From Pedobacter endophyticus (GTDB lineage: Bacteria; Bacteroidota; Bacteroidia; Sphingobacteriales; Sphingobacteriaceae): a stretch of DNA of 64,000 nt. The notes below the pieces were generated by a model. That model saw only the letters and a program-made list of their open reading frames with translations, ran no database searches and was not told the DNA's origin. Of this stretch, positions 3,161-57,197 are shown one piece after another (positions within the stretch are counted from its first letter, which is position 1; each line of letters opens with the position of its first letter). The position numbers and the translations under genes were made by a program. The stretch covers positions 1,488,001 to 1,552,000 of the forward strand of contig NZ_CP064939.1 of assembly GCF_015679185.1 (NCBI RefSeq). Reading direction: 5' to 3'.

Positions 3161-3405
3161 GCAGATTCAAAGATTTCTCCTCCAAAGGAGCTCCTGCGGA
3201 GCGCTTCGGTCGAAATAACGACTCCTCTAAGATATTCTTCTAAAAAATAACGTCATTCACATTGATTTTATTCCAATAATTACCCCTCAGGATGACAGCG
3301 TTTAAAAAAACATCCGACGAATAGCTGCAAAGTGCTCGATATTCATCGGCTGACTAAATGCAGAGGCAGATTCAAAGATTTCTCCGCTTCGGTCGAAATG
3401 ACGGG
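3161..3405. repeat. Direct copies of a short dispersed repeat
   Basis: GCAGATTCAAAGATTTCTCC occurs at 3161-3180 and again at 3366-3385. Each is followed soon after by GCTTCGGTCGAAAT and ACG. The first copy has an extra insert containing the small palindrome aaggagctcc. The surrounding 416-base gap (3080-3495) holds these plus two hairpins listed separately, and no gene that I can see. Confidence 0.6.
3311..3355. repeat. Hairpin repeat, degenerate copy (CATCCGATGAATA family)
   Basis: Arms catccgacgaata and tattcatcggctgact flank a short loop. This is a weaker member of the hairpin family whose best copies lie at 3414-3461, 24518-24565 and 56917-57197. Confidence 0.6.
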
Positions 3406-3413
3406 CTCAGAAA

Positions 3414-3461
3414 AGTCATCCGATGAATAGCAGCGAACCGCCTATTATTCATCGGATGACT
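3414..3461. repeat. Hairpin repeat (CATCCGATGAATA family)
   Basis: AGTCATCCGATGAATA and ATTCATCGGATGACT form a long, perfectly paired stem around a loop of about 15 bases. It lies 35 bases downstream of the M20 dipeptidase stop codon, where it could act as a transcript end or a stabilising 3' structure. It lacks a T-run. Confidence 0.8.
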
Positions 3462-15854: not shown

Positions 15855-15994
15855 GCTGGTCGGTGGGGACACCGACCAATAGATAAAAAGTTATCCAAGA
15901 AAGGTCAGTTGCTTATGGCCTAGAGAAGTCAAGTTTTTAAAACTTGACTTCTCTTACACTCGCCTTATTCTACTGGTTGGTGTCCCCACCAATC
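15855..15994. repeat. Foldback element with terminal inverted repeats
   Basis: GGTCGGTGGGGACACC near 15858 and the related inverted copy GGTGTCCCCACCAA near 15979 form the ends. Between them is a 33-bp perfect palindrome (15922-15954) built from AGAGAAGTCAAGTTTT and its complement. Almost the same palindrome lies at 30911-30941 and 41458-41488. The rest of the 555-base gap between the HTCS gene and the PUL1 operon should contain the operon promoter and regulator site, but I could not pick out a convincing box. Confidence 0.6.
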
Positions 15995-21377: not shown

Positions 21378-24300
21378 ATGAAGCACATGAAAAAATTTAT
21401 AAAACTATTTGCCTTGTTTGTTGCGCTCATGGCTAGCCACGCCACTTTTGCACAAGTAGGGAAAACAATAACAGGTACCATTTCTGATAACAGAGGACCT
21501 TTACCTGCCGCAACCATATTCGAAAAAGAGTTTACAAACAACGGTGTATCGACAGATGAAAATGGAAAGTTCAAGCTGAAACTCCGCGGACAGCAAGGCA
21601 TTATCGTGGTAAAATCAATCGGTTATCTTTCTCAGGAAATCAATGTATCAACCAAAACAACCGTTAATGTATCGCTAAAGGAAGATGCAACGGGTTTAGA
21701 AGAAGTGGTGGTGCTGGGCGTTGGGCAAACTACCAAAAAGATAACCTTAACGGGTGCTGTAAGCTCAATTTCGGGTACGCAAATCAGGCAGAGCCCTTCG
21801 GCCAGCTTACAGAACAGCTTAGCAGGACGCTTGCCGGGGTTTTTCTCGCAGCAACGTAGCGGGCAACCGGGTAGAGACGGCGCCGATTTCCAAATTAGGG
21901 GAATAAGCACCTATTCGGGCGGTACCACGCCGTTAATTATTGTGGATGATGTGGAAGTAACGAGCGATCAAATCAGCCTGATCGACCAAAACGAGGTAGA
22001 AAACGTTACGATTTTAAAAGATGCCTCAACAACGGCCGTTTATGGTGTTAGGGGCGCAAACGGCGTCATCATTATCACCACCCGTCGTGGTGCCAGCGGT
22101 AAACCTACCTTAAACTTTAAAAACGAAACAGGCCTGCAAACACCCACGCAACGCCCCGTTATTAACGATGGTTATACAACCTTAAACTTATTACGCGAAC
22201 GTTTAGCGGGCTTGTACACCAATCCGTTAACTTCTTATGCCGATTACTTTTCGGGCGATAACCTGCAACATTATCTCACCAATGATGATCCCTACAATCA
22301 TCCAAACATCAACTGGTGGGATGAAGTGATGAAAAAGGTAAGTATTCAAAACCGGATCAATTTTGATATTTCGGGCGGAAACAATACCGTAAAGTACTTT
22401 GTCAACTTAGGTTATTTGTATCAGGGCGGTTTATTTAAAGATTTTTCTGAAGATCAGGGATACAACTCAAACTATTTGTACAACCGATACAATTTCAGAT
22501 CGAACATCGATATTACGCCCAATAAATCGCTGAAGATCAAGATCGATTTATCGGGCAGGTTTGGTGTAACCAACGAACCGAACGATAAACCCTGGAACAA
22601 TGGCGGAACAACCTTTCAATACTTATGGAATGGCGAATTGTCGTCCTTTTTATATCCAATTTATTGGCCAAATGGTTTAATCGCCAGTTCATCATCATCA
22701 CTTACCAAGCCAAATCCCGTGGCTAATTTGATGTATTCGGGCTATAACCGTTCGTATGGGAACAATATATCAGCGGTTACCAGCGCCAATCAACAGCTCG
22801 ATTTCATTACTCCCGGTTTATCGGCCAATGTATTACTGGCCTTTTCAACCGATTACTCGTTCAGCTCAAACTTAACCCGAAATTCGGGTGAGATTTTGGC
22901 CTACACCTACGATCCCGCAACACAACGCTACAATCCGGTAACCGCCAACCTCTACAGGATGGGCGCTTTAACCCGCTCATCATCAAGCACATTAACCAAG
23001 AAAAACCTGAACATTAGGGCAGGATTAAACTACAACCGCGATTTTGGAAAGCACAACATTGGCGGTTTGGCCTTAATTAACCGAACAACCTCAACCGTGT
23101 TGCCTGTAGGCGCATCAACAGTTACTTTGCTTGATCCATATAATATTCAGGGCTTTACCGGTAAGGTTAATTATGCTTACAACCAAAAATATTTGTTAGA
23201 TCTTACCGCAGCGTATAATGGGTCTGACAGGTTCGAATCGAGCAAGCGTTACAAGTGGTTTCCGGCGGTAAGTGTGGGCTGGAATCTCGGCGAGGAAAGC
23301 TTTGTTAAGAACAACCTGAAGTTTATCGATTTCTTTAAAATCAGGGCCGCTTACGGTATCACCGGAAATGATAATATTGGCACTTCGACCTTTGCTTATC
23401 AAAAAACCTACACCACTGGCGCAAGTGGGGCCATTTTTGGCGAAACGCCACAAAGTTACACCGGAATTATTGAACCAACCCTGGGCAACACAAACATTAC
23501 GTGGATGACTACCGAAGATTTTAATGCGGGTATCGACATGAAGTTGTTCAACAACAAGTTATCGGTAACGGTTGATTATTTCAGGAAACTGACCAAGGAT
23601 ATTTTAACCACGCCGGGCTTAATTCCGAGCTCGTTCGGCGCTGCCCTACCGCCCTATAATCTCGGTCGTGTGCAAAACAGAGGCTACGAGTTGGATTTGA
23701 CCTACAGAGACAAAATCGGCGAAAACATCGAGTTTTTTGTCAATACCAACCTCACCTTTGCCAAAAACAAGGTATTGTACCGTGATGAGCCCGCTTATTT
23801 ATATGATGGATTGGCCCTGACCGGAAAACCTGTAAGTGCTGTTTTTCAATATACTTACGATGGTTTTTATCAAAGCTTGGCCGATTTATATACAGCGCCC
23901 CGCCTGGCAGCATCTACGCCGCTATCCTCGCTACAGTTAGGATCGGTAAAATACAAAGATTTAACAGGCGATGGCATCATCAATGCCAACGATAAACAAT
24001 ATATTGGCAACAATAACCCCAATTACACAGGCGGATTAAGCTTCGGTTTTTCTTACAAAGGCTTCGATATTTCCACCTTGTTTCAGGGATCTTTCGATTA
24101 CATCATCAATATGAACAGAGGCGCCTTTGCCTATGCACGTCCTGATCGTGTTTCTGTACCGTGGAACTTAAACCGCTGGACACCCATTACCGCCGAAAAC
24201 GCAACTTTCCCCGAGTTATCGGGCAGTGCCCAAAACGGCTTTGATGGAAGCGGCTCTTACTGGTCAACATTTTGGTTTGTAAAGGGCGATTATATCCGCT

Positions 24301-24512
24301 GGAAAAACTTCGAACTCGGCTATCGGTTTCCATCAAGCTTCAGCAAAAAACTGCATGTAAACAACATCCGCGTGTATGCAAATGGCTATAACATGGGCAT
24401 TGTTTACACCAAATTACCAACCTCAGTCGATCCCGAATCAGCCTTAACTTCATCTGCTGGTGAGTATCCGCAACAACGCGTGTTCAATTTTGGGGTTCAG
24501 TTTGGCTTATAA
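21378..24512 (+). CDS. SusC/RagA-type TonB-dependent transporter (second of PUL1)
   Basis: A 1044-residue full-length SusC. After the signal peptide comes a carboxypeptidase-D regulatory-like domain (about 28-105: GKTITGTISDNRGPLPAATI ... VNVSLKED), the linker LEEVVVLGVGQ, a plug (about 115-230: GADFQIRGISTYSGGTTPLIIVDDVEV, VTILKDASTTAVYGVRGANGVIIITT) and a C-terminal barrel ending VQFGL. Unlike the first SusC of this locus it keeps the N-terminal domain. It probably pairs with the SusD-like protein at 24596, but the two genes are separated by 83 bases that hold a strong hairpin. Confidence 0.94.
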   Translation: MKHMKKFIKLFALFVALMASHATFAQVGKTITGTISDNRGPLPAATIFEKEFTNNGVSTDENGKFKLKLRGQQGIIVVKSIGYLSQEINVSTKTTVNVSLKEDATGLEEVVVLGVGQTTKKITLTGAVSSISGTQIRQSPSASLQNSLAGRLPGFFSQQRSGQPGRDGADFQIRGISTYSGGTTPLIIVDDVEVTSDQISLIDQNEVENVTILKDASTTAVYGVRGANGVIIITTRRGASGKPTLNFKNETGLQTPTQRPVINDGYTTLNLLRERLAGLYTNPLTSYADYFSGDNLQHYLTNDDPYNHPNINWWDEVMKKVSIQNRINFDISGGNNTVKYFVNLGYLYQGGLFKDFSEDQGYNSNYLYNRYNFRSNIDITPNKSLKIKIDLSGRFGVTNEPNDKPWNNGGTTFQYLWNGELSSFLYPIYWPNGLIASSSSSLTKPNPVANLMYSGYNRSYGNNISAVTSANQQLDFITPGLSANVLLAFSTDYSFSSNLTRNSGEILAYTYDPATQRYNPVTANLYRMGALTRSSSSTLTKKNLNIRAGLNYNRDFGKHNIGGLALINRTTSTVLPVGASTVTLLDPYNIQGFTGKVNYAYNQKYLLDLTAAYNGSDRFESSKRYKWFPAVSVGWNLGEESFVKNNLKFIDFFKIRAAYGITGNDNIGTSTFAYQKTYTTGASGAIFGETPQSYTGIIEPTLGNTNITWMTTEDFNAGIDMKLFNNKLSVTVDYFRKLTKDILTTPGLIPSSFGAALPPYNLGRVQNRGYELDLTYRDKIGENIEFFVNTNLTFAKNKVLYRDEPAYLYDGLALTGKPVSAVFQYTYDGFYQSLADLYTAPRLAASTPLSSLQLGSVKYKDLTGDGIINANDKQYIGNNNPNYTGGLSFGFSYKGFDISTLFQGSFDYIINMNRGAFAYARPDRVSVPWNLNRWTPITAENATFPELSGSAQNGFDGSGSYWSTFWFVKGDYIRWKNFELGYRFPSSFSKKLHVNNIRVYANGYNMGIVYTKLPTSVDPESALTSSAGEYPQQRVFNFGVQFGL

Positions 24513-24517
24513 ACAGC

Positions 24518-24565
24518 AGTCATCGGATGAATATAGCCACTTCGCGAGGTATTCATCCGATGACT
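24518..24565. repeat. Hairpin repeat inside the PUL1 operon, arms swapped
   Basis: AGTCATCGGATGAATA pairs perfectly with TATTCATCCGATGACT around a 16-base loop. Relative to the other copies one stem base pair is exchanged on both sides (CC to CG in the left arm, GG to CC side in the right), so pairing is retained. It lies between a SusC stop and the next SusD start on the same strand. Confidence 0.85.
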
Positions 24566-24595: not shown

Positions 24596-26398
24596 ATGAA
24601 AAATAAAATATTCACTTCGCTTCTAGTCATCGCGAGTTCAATATTGATCTATTCTTGCAAAAAGGGAAGCTCCCTCGATCCAAAAGTAGAGCCTTTAACC
24701 GAAGAAAAGGTGTTTGCCGATAGCGCATTAACCTTTAACTTTCTAAATAACTTGTATTGGAACACCGGTTTGGATCTCCACTCCTACCGCAACACCATTG
24801 GCGGTGCAACAGGCGGTGGCCCCGGCAGCAGCGATTGGAACGATAGTTTCGAAACCCTAACATCAAACGCCGCCAGTGGCTATTCGGGGCAAGATGCTTT
24901 TTTAAAAGGAACATCAACCAGCACCAGTCACCCGTTATTACCGATGTGGGCCTTGATGTACCGAAAAATTAGAGGGGCAAATAAGTTTATGGCCAACGTG
25001 GGCGCATCGCCTATCTCGGCTGCGAGAAAAAAAGTTCTAACCGCTGAAGCTCGGTTTTTAAGGGCCTTTTATTACCAGATGTTGGTTCGCTTTTACGGCG
25101 GCGTACAATTGGTAGGCGATTTGGTTAGCGACGATTTCCCGACCTACGATTACAAAAGAAACACCTATAAAGAATGTATTGATTACATTGCTACCGAGTA
25201 CGATCAGGCGGCCGCAGATTTGCCCAGCTCGGCTACGCTAGAGGCCATTAATTACGGCAGGGCCACATCAGGCGCTTGCAAGGCCATGAAGGCCCGATTA
25301 TTGGTTACCGCCGCCAGCCCCTTGTTTAACGGGAGCCCCGCGAGTACTGATGCGAGCATAGCACCGTTAATTTCTTATTCAACAAGCTACGATGCTTCAT
25401 TATGGCAAAAAGCTGCCGACGCCTGTAAAGCCGTGATCGATTTGCCCGAATACGCCTTGGTGGTGGATAATACCTTGCCTGCCTATCCGGGCAACGGCTT
25501 TTGGAAACTGTTTACCAGCGGGCGCAAAAATTCGGAATTTATTTTTGTGTACAATTTGGCCGCCGGAGGAAAAACTTTGGAGGCCGCATGGTTTCCACGA
25601 TCAATTAGTGGCGCCGGAGACCTGACCTATATGAACCCCAGCCAAAACGTGGTTGATGCATTTGGCATGGCCAATGGGAAATTAATTACCGACGGAACTT
25701 CGGGCTACAATGTGCAAGATCCCTATAAAAACCGCGATCCGCGGTTTTATTACTCGATCTTGTATAACCAGGCCACCATGACCAGCAGAACTACTACGGC
25801 GCAAACCACCATCAACATTTATTCGGATGCAAACAACAATAGAGTTGGTGACGGATTACAAGCCTATTATACCAAAACGGGTTACTACGCCCGTAAAATG
25901 TGCAACGATCGGGTGCCTTACACCAGCTTAACCGTTGATAGAGCGTTGCCAGTGATGCGTTTGGCAGAAATAGTGCTTGGTTACGCCGAAGCCTTAAACG
26001 AGTTGGGGCAAACCGAAGCAGCAGTAATTCAGTTGAAAAAGATTCGCCAGCGAGCAGGCATTACAGCAGCGACGGATGGCCGTTACGGCATACCTGTTGG
26101 CGTAAGCAAAGAACAATTAAGAGCCTTGATTAGAAATGAATACCGGGTGGAGTTTTTTGCCGAAGGACATTGGTTTTACGATACACGCAGGTGGAAAACC
26201 GCCGAGGAAACTGAAAACGGCAACTCTACGCTAATCCGGGCGAAACCGAGCGCAACGGGTAGCACCTATCCGTTTACCTATAGCGTAGAAAACCGACTGG
26301 AAATGAAATTTTTAGCACCGGCCATGTATTTTGTGCCAATTCCGTTGGCCGAGATATTGAAAAGTAAAAACTTGTTAGTCCAAAACCCGGGATGGTAA
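24596..26398 (+). CDS. SusD/RagB-type glycan-binding lipoprotein (second of PUL1)
   Basis: A 600-residue lipoprotein with lipobox IYSCKK near residue 21. It has the SusD hallmarks KKVLTAEARFLRAFYYQMLVRFYGGV, ACKAMKARLLVTAASPLFNG, MRLAEIVLGYAEALNELG, RNEYRVEFFAEGHWFYDTRRW and the closing FVPIPLAEI with NPGW at the end. It should act with the SusC at 21378 in binding a glycan on the cell surface. Two SusC/SusD pairs in one operon suggest two related ligands or branched substrates. Confidence 0.94.
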   Translation: MKNKIFTSLLVIASSILIYSCKKGSSLDPKVEPLTEEKVFADSALTFNFLNNLYWNTGLDLHSYRNTIGGATGGGPGSSDWNDSFETLTSNAASGYSGQDAFLKGTSTSTSHPLLPMWALMYRKIRGANKFMANVGASPISAARKKVLTAEARFLRAFYYQMLVRFYGGVQLVGDLVSDDFPTYDYKRNTYKECIDYIATEYDQAAADLPSSATLEAINYGRATSGACKAMKARLLVTAASPLFNGSPASTDASIAPLISYSTSYDASLWQKAADACKAVIDLPEYALVVDNTLPAYPGNGFWKLFTSGRKNSEFIFVYNLAAGGKTLEAAWFPRSISGAGDLTYMNPSQNVVDAFGMANGKLITDGTSGYNVQDPYKNRDPRFYYSILYNQATMTSRTTTAQTTINIYSDANNNRVGDGLQAYYTKTGYYARKMCNDRVPYTSLTVDRALPVMRLAEIVLGYAEALNELGQTEAAVIQLKKIRQRAGITAATDGRYGIPVGVSKEQLRALIRNEYRVEFFAEGHWFYDTRRWKTAEETENGNSTLIRAKPSATGSTYPFTYSVENRLEMKFLAPAMYFVPIPLAEILKSKNLLVQNPGW

Positions 26399-26724: not shown

Positions 26725-26901
26725 ACCGTTGCAGCTGTCATTGACTGAGGATCTTAATGCGCAAAAATTGGGTGCTTTGCAGCAATCCCGTGCATACGGA
26801 ACCACCTGCCTGCCTGTCCGTTCAGGCGGGCTCGGGGAAGACAATCGACTGAAAGGAAAGGTGACAAAAAACATTAAACACAACATTAACACACATACAA
26901 A

Positions 26902-30818: not shown

Positions 30819-30856
30819 GTTGAGAGGGGTAAGTCTTACGCTAGCTGTCACCCTGA

Positions 30857-30954
30857 GCGTAGTCGAAGGGCAATACAGGTTTAAGTGCTCCATCGGATCA
30901 CGTGACATCAGAGAAGTCAAGTTTTAAAAACTTGACTTCTCTAAATGTGTTCAG
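30857..30954. repeat. 98-bp direct repeat, left copy
   Basis: This stretch recurs at 41404-41501 in the same orientation with a single visible difference (ctctaaatg against ctccaaatg). It includes the palindrome GAGAAGTCAAGTTTT-a-AAAACTTGACTTCTC. The two copies stand on either side of the toxin cassette. Confidence 0.85.
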
Positions 30955-30990: not shown

Positions 30991-31089
30991 AAGCTGAGCA
31001 ATCTTTAAACCTTGTTCATTCGAAAAAGAACTTTAATAGCAGTACATCTTATGCAAGCTGTCACCCTGAGCGTAGTCGAAGGGCAATAC
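30991..31089. repeat. Second repeat block, left copy
   Basis: Contains aagctgag, then attcgaaaaagaacttta and ctgtcaccctgagcgt. The same series stands at 41074-41157 on the other side of the cassette, less well conserved than the 98-bp pair. Its tail (agtcgaagggcaatac) also repeats the start of the 98-bp unit. Confidence 0.7.
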
Positions 31090-41004: not shown

Positions 41005-41051
41005 AGTCATCTGACGAATATAGGCTACCTGCAGCTATTCATCGGATGGCT
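41005..41051. repeat. Hairpin repeat, degenerate copy (CATCCGATGAATA family)
   Basis: agtcatctgacgaata and tattcatcggatggct flank a loop that matches the loop of the 56917 group (taggctac.tgcag). Pairing is imperfect. Confidence 0.65.
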
Positions 41052-41073: not shown

Positions 41074-41157
41074 AAGCTGAGAAAATCTTTAAGAGTTCGC
41101 CCATTCGAAAAAGAACTTTAGTACAGTGCATCTTACGCTAGCTGTCACCCTGAGCGT
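41074..41157. repeat. Second repeat block, right copy
   Basis: Matches 30991-31073: aagctgag, attcgaaaaagaacttta, ctgtcaccctgagcgt, same orientation. It belongs to the 743-base gene-free gap (40812-41554) that is almost filled with repeats. Confidence 0.7.
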
Positions 41158-41204
41158 GAATTTTTCAGAAAAAATCAATAGGAATGACGTTATGTATTCT
41201 TGCC

Positions 41205-41313
41205 GTCTTTCCCGCGCCCGCCTGAACGGACGGGCAGGCGGTCCCGTACGTACGGGACTAATGCCAAGCTAAAGCCTTTCTTTCGCTTTAGGATTCCCAA
41301 TTAAATTGGGAAT
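41205..41313. repeat. Cluster of short palindromes
   Basis: Three foldbacks in a row: gcctgaac/gggcaggc near 41220-41239, the perfect palindrome GTCCCGTACGTACGGGAC at 41241-41258, and ATTCCCAATT-a-AATTGGGAAT at 41293-41313. The first has a relative near 26808-26830. These are probably merged dispersed repeats, possibly also transcript ends for the opposing units. Confidence 0.55.
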
Positions 41314-41403: not shown

Positions 41404-41501
41404 GCGTAGTCGAAGGGCAATACAGGTTTAAGTGCTCCATCGGATCACGTGACATCAGAGAAGTCAAGTTTTAAAAACTTGACTTCTCCAAATGTGTTCA
41501 G
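41404..41501. repeat. 98-bp direct repeat, right copy
   Basis: Partner of 30857-30954, same orientation, one visible mismatch. It ends about 50 bases downstream of the ROK kinase stop codon. The distance between the two copies is about 10.5 kb. Confidence 0.85.
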
Positions 41502-56880: not shown

Positions 56881-57197
56881 CGGCAATGAATGCAATGAGC
56901 CTACCAGTGGCCTATCAGTCATCCGATCAATATAGGCTACTTGCAGGTATTCATCGGATGACTACATGTTCTTTTTTTATCCGTTGACTAAAGTCAACGG
57001 CAATGAATGCAATGAGCCTACCAGTGGCCTCTCGGTCATCCGACGAATATAGGCTACTTGCAGGTATTCATCGGATGACTACATGTTCTTTTTTTATCCG
57101 CTAACTGAAGTCAACGGCAATGAATGTAATGAGCCTACCAGTGGCCTATCGGTCATCCGATGAATATAGGCTACTTGCAGGTGTTCATCGGATGACT
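56881..57197. repeat. Threefold 117-bp tandem repeat, each unit with a hairpin
   Basis: Units start at 56881, 56998 and 57115 (CGGCAATGAATG...), exactly 117 bases apart, the last one incomplete. Each carries gagcctaccagtggcct, then a hairpin (56917-56963, 57034-57080, 57151-57197) with arms GTCATCCGATGAATA / TATTCATCGGATGAC and loop taggctacttgcagg, with few mismatches. Between units stands a small foldback gttgact-aa-agtcaac. It lies just downstream of the GH67 stop codon (on the minus strand) and far upstream of the mannan operon. Confidence 0.9.

Follow-up and report, generated by a model that had tools for sequence, protein, structure and literature searches.

The 64,000-nt stretch of DNA analysed here (the window) corresponds to G000:C1:1488001-1552000 of the 5.43-Mb single-contig genome of Pedobacter endophyticus. 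It contains a hairpin in the short gap between genes for a SusC-like TonB-dependent receptor and a SusD-like protein (Table 1). Nucleotides 24519-24564 consist of GTCATCGGATGAAT-18 nt-ATTCATCCGATGAC, in which all 14 arm positions are paired, and A24518 and T24565 add one pair outside the 14-bp stem to give 15-bp arms. These data bear out the initial annotation, which had described this copy as changed in both arms yet perfectly paired. When folded as DNA the hairpin had a predicted energy of -15.5 kcal/mol compared to a mean of -3.9 for shuffled sequences (z -7.5), and the RNA fold gave -26.9 kcal/mol (z -7.1). No T-run was present 3' of the hairpin, and Rfam models produced 0 matches in the 64-kb window at gathering scores.

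Related elements were classified by the base at the centre of the left arm: C-type elements have C at this position and G opposite, while G-type elements have G with C opposite. The element at 24518-24565 is G-type. In both types the arm core, TCATC-S-GATGA, is palindromic about the variable base. It had also been proposed that inversion of the whole hairpin cannot yield the G-type. This claim was correct, since the reverse complement of an element keeps its type; moreover, the forward and reverse counts were equal. A search of the window for arm matches with at most two mismatches identified 15, compared to 0.44 expected. These 15 matches comprised seven elements: five C-type, one G-type and one in which T and G occupy the centre. 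Full pairing of the 14 positions was found in just two of the seven.

Table 1. Hairpin elements of the family and the genes flanking the element under study (window positions)
Feature	Position	Strand	Remarks
C-type element, decayed	3309..3354	.	4 unpaired positions
C-type element	3415..3460	.	14/14 paired
SusC-like TonB-dependent receptor	21378..24512	+	directly upstream of the hairpin; Pfam Plug, CarbopepD_reg_2, TonB barrel
G-type element under study	24518..24565	.	arms AGTCATCGGATGAAT/ATTCATCCGATGACT, 15 bp, 18-nt loop; susC-like stop to susD-like start
SusD-like protein	24596..26398	+	directly downstream of the hairpin; Pfam SusD_RagB 1e-54
Decayed element	41006..41050	.	T and G at centre, 3 unpaired positions
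C-type element	56918..56962	.	no. 1 of three in 117-nt tandem array
C-type element	57035..57079	.	no. 2 of 117-nt tandem array
C-type element	57152..57196	.	no. 3 of 117-nt tandem array

Other dispersed repeats were observed in the window. A second foldback family, AGAGAAGTCAAGTTTT(T/A)AAAACTTGACTTCTCT, is present at 15922-15954, 30910-30942 and 41457-41489, and its core had 20 matches in a 2.0-Mb sample with both strands counted. Repeats of the CTGTCACCCTGAGCGTAGTCGAAGGGC type occur at 30820-30876, 31033-31089 and 41117-41173 (46 core matches in the same sample, both strands). In addition, a 35-nt G+C-rich repeat beginning with GCCTGCCTGTCCGTTCAGGCGGGC was found at 26808-26842 and 41205-41239 in opposite orientation, the two copies being 91% complementary; its core gave 15 matches in the 2.0-Mb sample, again with both strands counted.

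The entire P. endophyticus genome contained 137 elements with both 12-base arms exact and C or G at the centre. There were 70 C-type, 64 G-type and three mixed elements, the mixed count being obtained by subtraction; two of the three were seen directly in the element list. The initial annotation had set one deviating member against most copies. This imbalance was an effect of the window, as the two types are of similar abundance genome-wide. We conclude that the 24518 copy is unexceptional: its version is about as common as the C-type, and it is not a lone compensated copy. The centre was matched in 179 of 182 exact-arm elements from the six element-bearing genomes of a 60-genome sample. The six-genome total was 100 C-type, 79 G-type and three mixed elements, the latter by subtraction and all from P. 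endophyticus. The other five genomes, G005, G007, G036, G037 and G052, contributed 2, 3, 6, 19 and 0 C-type elements and 1, 7, 1, 3 and 3 G-type elements, respectively.

Decay of the dispersed copies was followed in 100 evenly spaced 20-kb stretches (2.0 Mb) of the genome, in which elements were sought from one arm at a time. The 478 anchor matches yielded 99 elements with at most six changes and at most four per arm, and 77 remained after removal of overlaps. From these, the 74 elements with at most four changes were counted. They represent 42 loci, elements less than 400 nt apart being taken as one cluster from which the first element was counted. With one element per locus the centre was paired in 39 of the 42 loci, compared to 23.9 expected by shuffling, and there were 11 G/G loci compared to 3.1 expected. 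At the other 13 positions of the 42 loci we found 34 unpaired changes versus three paired doubles, the latter a slight excess over the 0.46 expected by shuffling. The stem covariation that had been suggested as a check was apparent at the centre; at the remaining 13 positions unpaired changes prevailed. From the off-centre counts we conclude that dispersed copies mostly decay without compensation. This result argues against selection on pairing in each copy. For the earlier suggestion that pairing is selected or kept, equal numbers of unpaired stem changes among genomic copies had been named as the opposing outcome.

Loop lengths ranged from 15 to 19 nt across the family; loops were mostly 17 nt at C-type loci (15 of 28) and mostly 18 nt at G-type loci (6 of 11). 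The loop was considered as a mark of type and rejected, as no more than two bases separate the G-type loop at 2525903 from the C-type loop at 5329511. Ten of the 42 sampled loci held 2-10 copies. ORFs cover 83% of the sequence, and 41 of the 42 loci lay outside them. Orientation of the loop with respect to the replichores, which were guessed from GC skew, did not reveal a bias (12/9 versus 7/9, p 0.51; 5 of the 42 loci could not be oriented). Derivation of the G-type by a register shift, from the spacer that separates two C-type elements, would need further end changes.

The same susC-susD junction was identified in three relatives (G027, G009 and G001), with flanking pieces of 66-80% identity and a short intergenic gap. 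The hairpin was absent from this orthologous junction in all three aligned relatives, and their genomes contain zero exact-arm elements anywhere. This alignment comprised three relatives with matches to both flanks; G022, with pieces of both flanks, was left out. Either the hairpin was inserted in P. endophyticus or it was lost in the relatives, and insertion would be the simpler reading.

The initial annotation had offered a structured RNA and a transposase-made, REP-like foldback as explanations for the pairing. For the former, selection would maintain pairing in the RNA between susC and susD, where the element would serve mRNA processing, stability or attenuation. The stable RNA fold is consistent with such a role, as are the co-directional genes flanking the 24518 copy and the position of 23 of the 38 classifiable loci between tandem genes. 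However, convergent (11) and divergent (4) gaps are also occupied, and the bias in these gap classes relative to the gap-length background was not significant. Uncompensated changes prevail (34 versus 3), both central states are common, the orthologous junctions of three relatives are without the hairpin, and neither an Rfam match in the window nor a T-run after the hairpin was found. A structured RNA is therefore very improbable, and this half of the earlier reading is not supported.

Template switching between the arms during replication (quasi-palindrome correction), by which the polymerase copies a change in one arm into the other, may have made the matched C-G to G-C change as a by-product, without selection on pairing. 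This mechanism concerns the origin of the changed pair rather than the nature of the element, and can hold together with the REP reading. Template switching has been proposed to create compensatory hairpin changes and could do so in one step, according to the available text of PMC8794818. The small excess of paired doubles away from the centre (3 versus 0.46) and the existence of mixed elements (3 of 137, by subtraction) point in the same direction. If frequent, however, template switching should not leave 34 unpaired versus three paired changes in dispersed copies, nor does it agree with the concentration of the matched change at one position. We consider this origin of the G-type possible but rather unlikely.

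A RAYT/REP-type transposase gene, for which a search elsewhere in the genome had been recommended, was found between mraZ and pgk at G000:C1:1924122-1924694. This RAYT-like gene of 190 aa is embedded in an array of family hairpins, of which 10 scored elements, mostly spaced by 64 nt, are upstream of the gene and one is downstream. RAYT-like genes with family hairpins on either side were also present in G036 and G037. The P. endophyticus gene was recovered solely by a protein query from relative G036. Its Pfam Y1_Tnp score was 16.0 bits, under the gathering cut-off of 23; the G036 protein scored 21.2, and the G037 protein scored 28.2, above the cut-off in its genome search. The predicted structure had a pLDDT of 93, and its best PDB match was 4er8, entitled REP-associated tyrosine transposase bound to REP hairpin (E 1.3e-7, 14% identity), followed by IS200/IS605-type transposases, in agreement with a Y1 transposase fold. 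A PDB sequence search yielded weak matches only. In the fold alignment, which took 71 of the 86 listed proteins, N54, H55 and H57 were invariant and Y124 was conserved in at least 90% of the 71 sequences, indicating that both the HUH and the single-tyrosine motifs are present. The protein is without WQ and has FQ at 97-98, with F97 nearly invariant; the W-Q guide-recognition site was judged by motif reading against the available text of PMC6006769.

Two Pfam Y1_Tnp (PF01797) proteins of the P. endophyticus genome were considered as the source and rejected, as no family element was found within 1.5 kb of them. The 1.5-kb search around both proteins produced one single-arm match with three mismatches, near L032. 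L032 (2454941-2455204) is itself RAYT-like (NHIH, YIHQNP) and is bracketed by two-hairpin repeats of another kind, ATCGTAAAATACGAT and CTCGTTNNNAACGAG. L031 (3738771-3739112, minus strand) is a Y1 protein with, by eye, the YIKNQ..HH motif of subclass 1.2. It is adjoined by CCGTCGGCTGAAGCCAGACGG-type repeats, although subclass 1.2 has been reported without REPs.

The exact-arm hairpin was present in 13 of 145 genomes of the genus. A close RAYT match (E<=1e-20, at least 59% identity) was found in 11 of these 13 genomes and in 0 of the 132 others (Fisher 8e-15); the 59% line was drawn after the list had been seen, with the next match down at 49%. Three of the 11 matches (G115, G007 and G005) were broken or partial. 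The hairpin-bearing genomes G117 (one hairpin) and G159 (four hairpins) had no close RAYT at these thresholds. None of the 147 genomes from other genera in a 149-genome class-wide sample contained an exact-arm hairpin, P. endophyticus alone being positive. Named records with this RAYT clade were from Pedobacter; the RAYT protein of G052 was identical to that of P. psychrotolerans, and the G036 protein to that of a Pedobacter bin. A tblastn search with MraZ and Pgk against 110 RAYT loci matched 14, which were the loci of this RAYT clade. They correspond to 11 distinct loci (three were fetched twice); 13 of the 14 had both genes and G005 had pgk only.

These results establish two kinds of link, adjacency and co-occurrence, between the hairpin family and a single clade of RAYT/TnpA-REP-like HUH/Y1 proteins at mraZ-pgk, and they support the transposase-made half of the earlier reading. 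Mobility of the hairpin by the RAYT is putative, as adjacency is no proof of mobilisation. The RAYT might instead be a passenger within a hairpin array that was spread by another activity. The two genomes with hairpins but without a close RAYT match would fit this explanation, as would the tandem arrays, which suggest local duplication. However, the co-occurrence (11/13 versus 0/132) and the finding that the hairpins beside the RAYT vary between species along with the RAYT make it very unlikely.

The type of the RAYT-flanking elements differed between species. C-type flanks were present in P. endophyticus (11 of 11 elements), G036, G037, P. frigiditerrae and P. cryotolerans, while the flanks were G-type in P. 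psychrotolerans, P. sp. R20-19, P. petrophilus and G005, and mostly G-type in P. paludis. The centre was paired in 57 of the 63 elements at the 11 RAYT loci and unpaired in six. P. paludis contained a second switched pair, GCCATC/GATGGC, and the G036/G037 group contained a switched pair at position 13. A RAYT protein tree was built from 22 of the 110 RAYT rows; L215, L254 and L197 are fragments, and L216 was omitted from the state count. This tree placed P. endophyticus inside the G-type rows (96/92), such that two central changes would be needed. In topology tests a single G-type clade was not rejected (AU p 0.098), whereas a single C-type clade was rejected (p 0.002). As the type of the flanks at the RAYT locus depends on the species, the base pair at this orthologous source changed with pairing retained, once as a minimum and probably twice. 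RAYT-linked elements were not compensated significantly more often than dispersed elements (8/39 versus 3/43 paired/unpaired, p 0.20).

The paired changes also bear on a reading of the arms as paired operator sites, in which each TCATC-S-GATGA core would be a dyad for a putative dimeric protein. The palindromic core of both types would suit this explanation. However, the off-centre paired changes in P. paludis (GCCATCGGATGAAT/ATTCATCCGATGGC) and the G037 group (GATGAG/CTCATC) follow the opposite-arm partner, not the same-arm dyad partner, and loop length varies (15-19 nt). Operator sites are hardly plausible.

Further arrangements were seen at individual RAYT loci. The L216 locus contains both central states and other-register arms, including 13-base near-palindromes (GTCATCSGATGAC), and G137 has elements similar to the L216 hairpins. 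The RAYT arrays L181, L173 and L219 alternate two hairpin types, like paired REPs in a REPIN, and in one of these types position 4 forms a G.T pair on one strand.

With the resident RAYT flanked by C-type elements only, nothing at present ties the G-type copies of P. endophyticus to a source. The idea that the C-type copies are the recent ones, given the C-type flanks of the resident RAYT, was not supported, as the trend was in the opposite direction: the least-changed copy per locus carried 1.0 changes for the C-type compared to 0.36 for the G-type (26 and 11 loci, respectively; p 0.034).

The family resembles REP/REPIN elements and their RAYTs (REPtrons) in being short, palindromic, high in copy number, intergenic and partly clustered, with a Y1/HUH gene amid the same palindromes. 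GTAG REP families are already reported to include sub-families that differ by alternative, complementary residues in the stem (PMC3733652, available text). REPIN hairpins with compensatory changes are described in the accessible parts of PMC3116915, and those of PMC3686654 describe orthologous RAYT groups whose REPs differ. Unlike REPtrons, the Pedobacter elements have no GT[AG]G foot: within 6 nt of an arm, none of the 74 sampled elements carried it on either strand. They differ further in a 14-15 bp stem with a 15-19 nt loop and in a RAYT with FQ and no WQ, and 65 of 74 copies have arms that are symmetric once the flanking A and T are included. The missing foot argues for an atypical rather than a canonical REP. 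On the basis of the missing foot and the missing WQ, we file the family as an atypical REP with its RAYT.

Among described TnpA-Y1 proteins, W-Q at the guide-recognition site is given for subclasses 2.2, 2.4, 2.5 and 2.7, and Bacteroidetes TnpA genes with atypical flanking structures are also described, in the available text of PMC6006769. Subclass 2.6, as presented there, shares with the Pedobacter RAYT its occurrence in Bacteroidetes, a Y[IV]HQNP-like motif, a similar length and atypical flanking structures repeated across the genome; the Pedobacter RAYT differs in having NHFH rather than NH[LIV]H and FQ rather than WQ. By the same excerpts, L032, with its NHIH and YIHQNP motifs and other hairpins, fits subclass 2.6 better than the RAYT of the family. 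The 'double foot' REPs of subclass 2.4 are also similar (NHFH, median length of 194 aa, Bacteroidetes, symmetric ends) in that part of PMC6006769, except that the Pedobacter ends are AGTC/GACT instead of GT[AG]G/C[TC]AC and the RAYT has YVHQNP instead of YIxNNP and FQ instead of WQ. Compared by motif, the RAYT would appear to fit neither subclass 2.4 nor subclass 2.6 fully. CGTC repeats, for which Bacteroidetes are among the phyla reported in the available text of PMC3733652, are likewise short palindromes with sub-families. In that account, stems of 8-9 bp, loops of 4-5 nt and unpaired tails, most of which fit CCA, set those repeats apart from the elements described here. A word search of open-access papers did not find the Pedobacter hairpin family.

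The explanation that we consider likely is that the 24518 copy belongs to the G-type part of a two-state family of atypical REPs on which a RAYT/TnpA-REP-like transposase acts. The RAYT would recognise the folded single-stranded hairpin and move, amplify or help to copy it. The source element would have to pair, with its central pair free to be C-G or G-C. This pair may have switched jointly in source lineages, after which each version spread and the dispersed copies would mostly have decayed uncompensated. With switching in the source lineages and subsequent spread, the central base change would mark the repeat version, not repair at 24518. Work on two other TnpA-REP systems points in this direction: in the available text of PMC8266576, cleavage was seriously impaired or nearly lost when the stem contained a mismatch, and swapping stem bases to their complements had milder effects. 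The E. coli system in that account requires a mid-stem bulge, the opposite of a perfect stem. By analogy with mismatch-sensitive, complement-tolerant TnpA-REP systems one would expect the C/G toggle.

A bolder version of the likely explanation, which we put forward tentatively and regard as unlikely to hold in full, is a REPtron outside the GTAG code. Here a RAYT clade without the guide-motif W would read stem geometry and the loop, not a strand-marking foot. Symmetric arms would make both strands near-identical foldbacks in P. endophyticus, and the central pair could toggle freely, having done so more than once at the mraZ-pgk source.

The hairpin between susC and susD is best regarded as a fairly ordinary selfish and probably mobile small repeat, not as a lone hairpin repaired by selection. 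Its RAYT escapes the usual Pfam cut-off. Covariation among dispersed repeats should be interpreted with caution, as it can mean that matched versions have spread rather than that each copy is under selection. Two stem versions together with an identifiable transposase in 11 genomes constitute a natural experiment on pairing versus base identity for a hairpin transposase.
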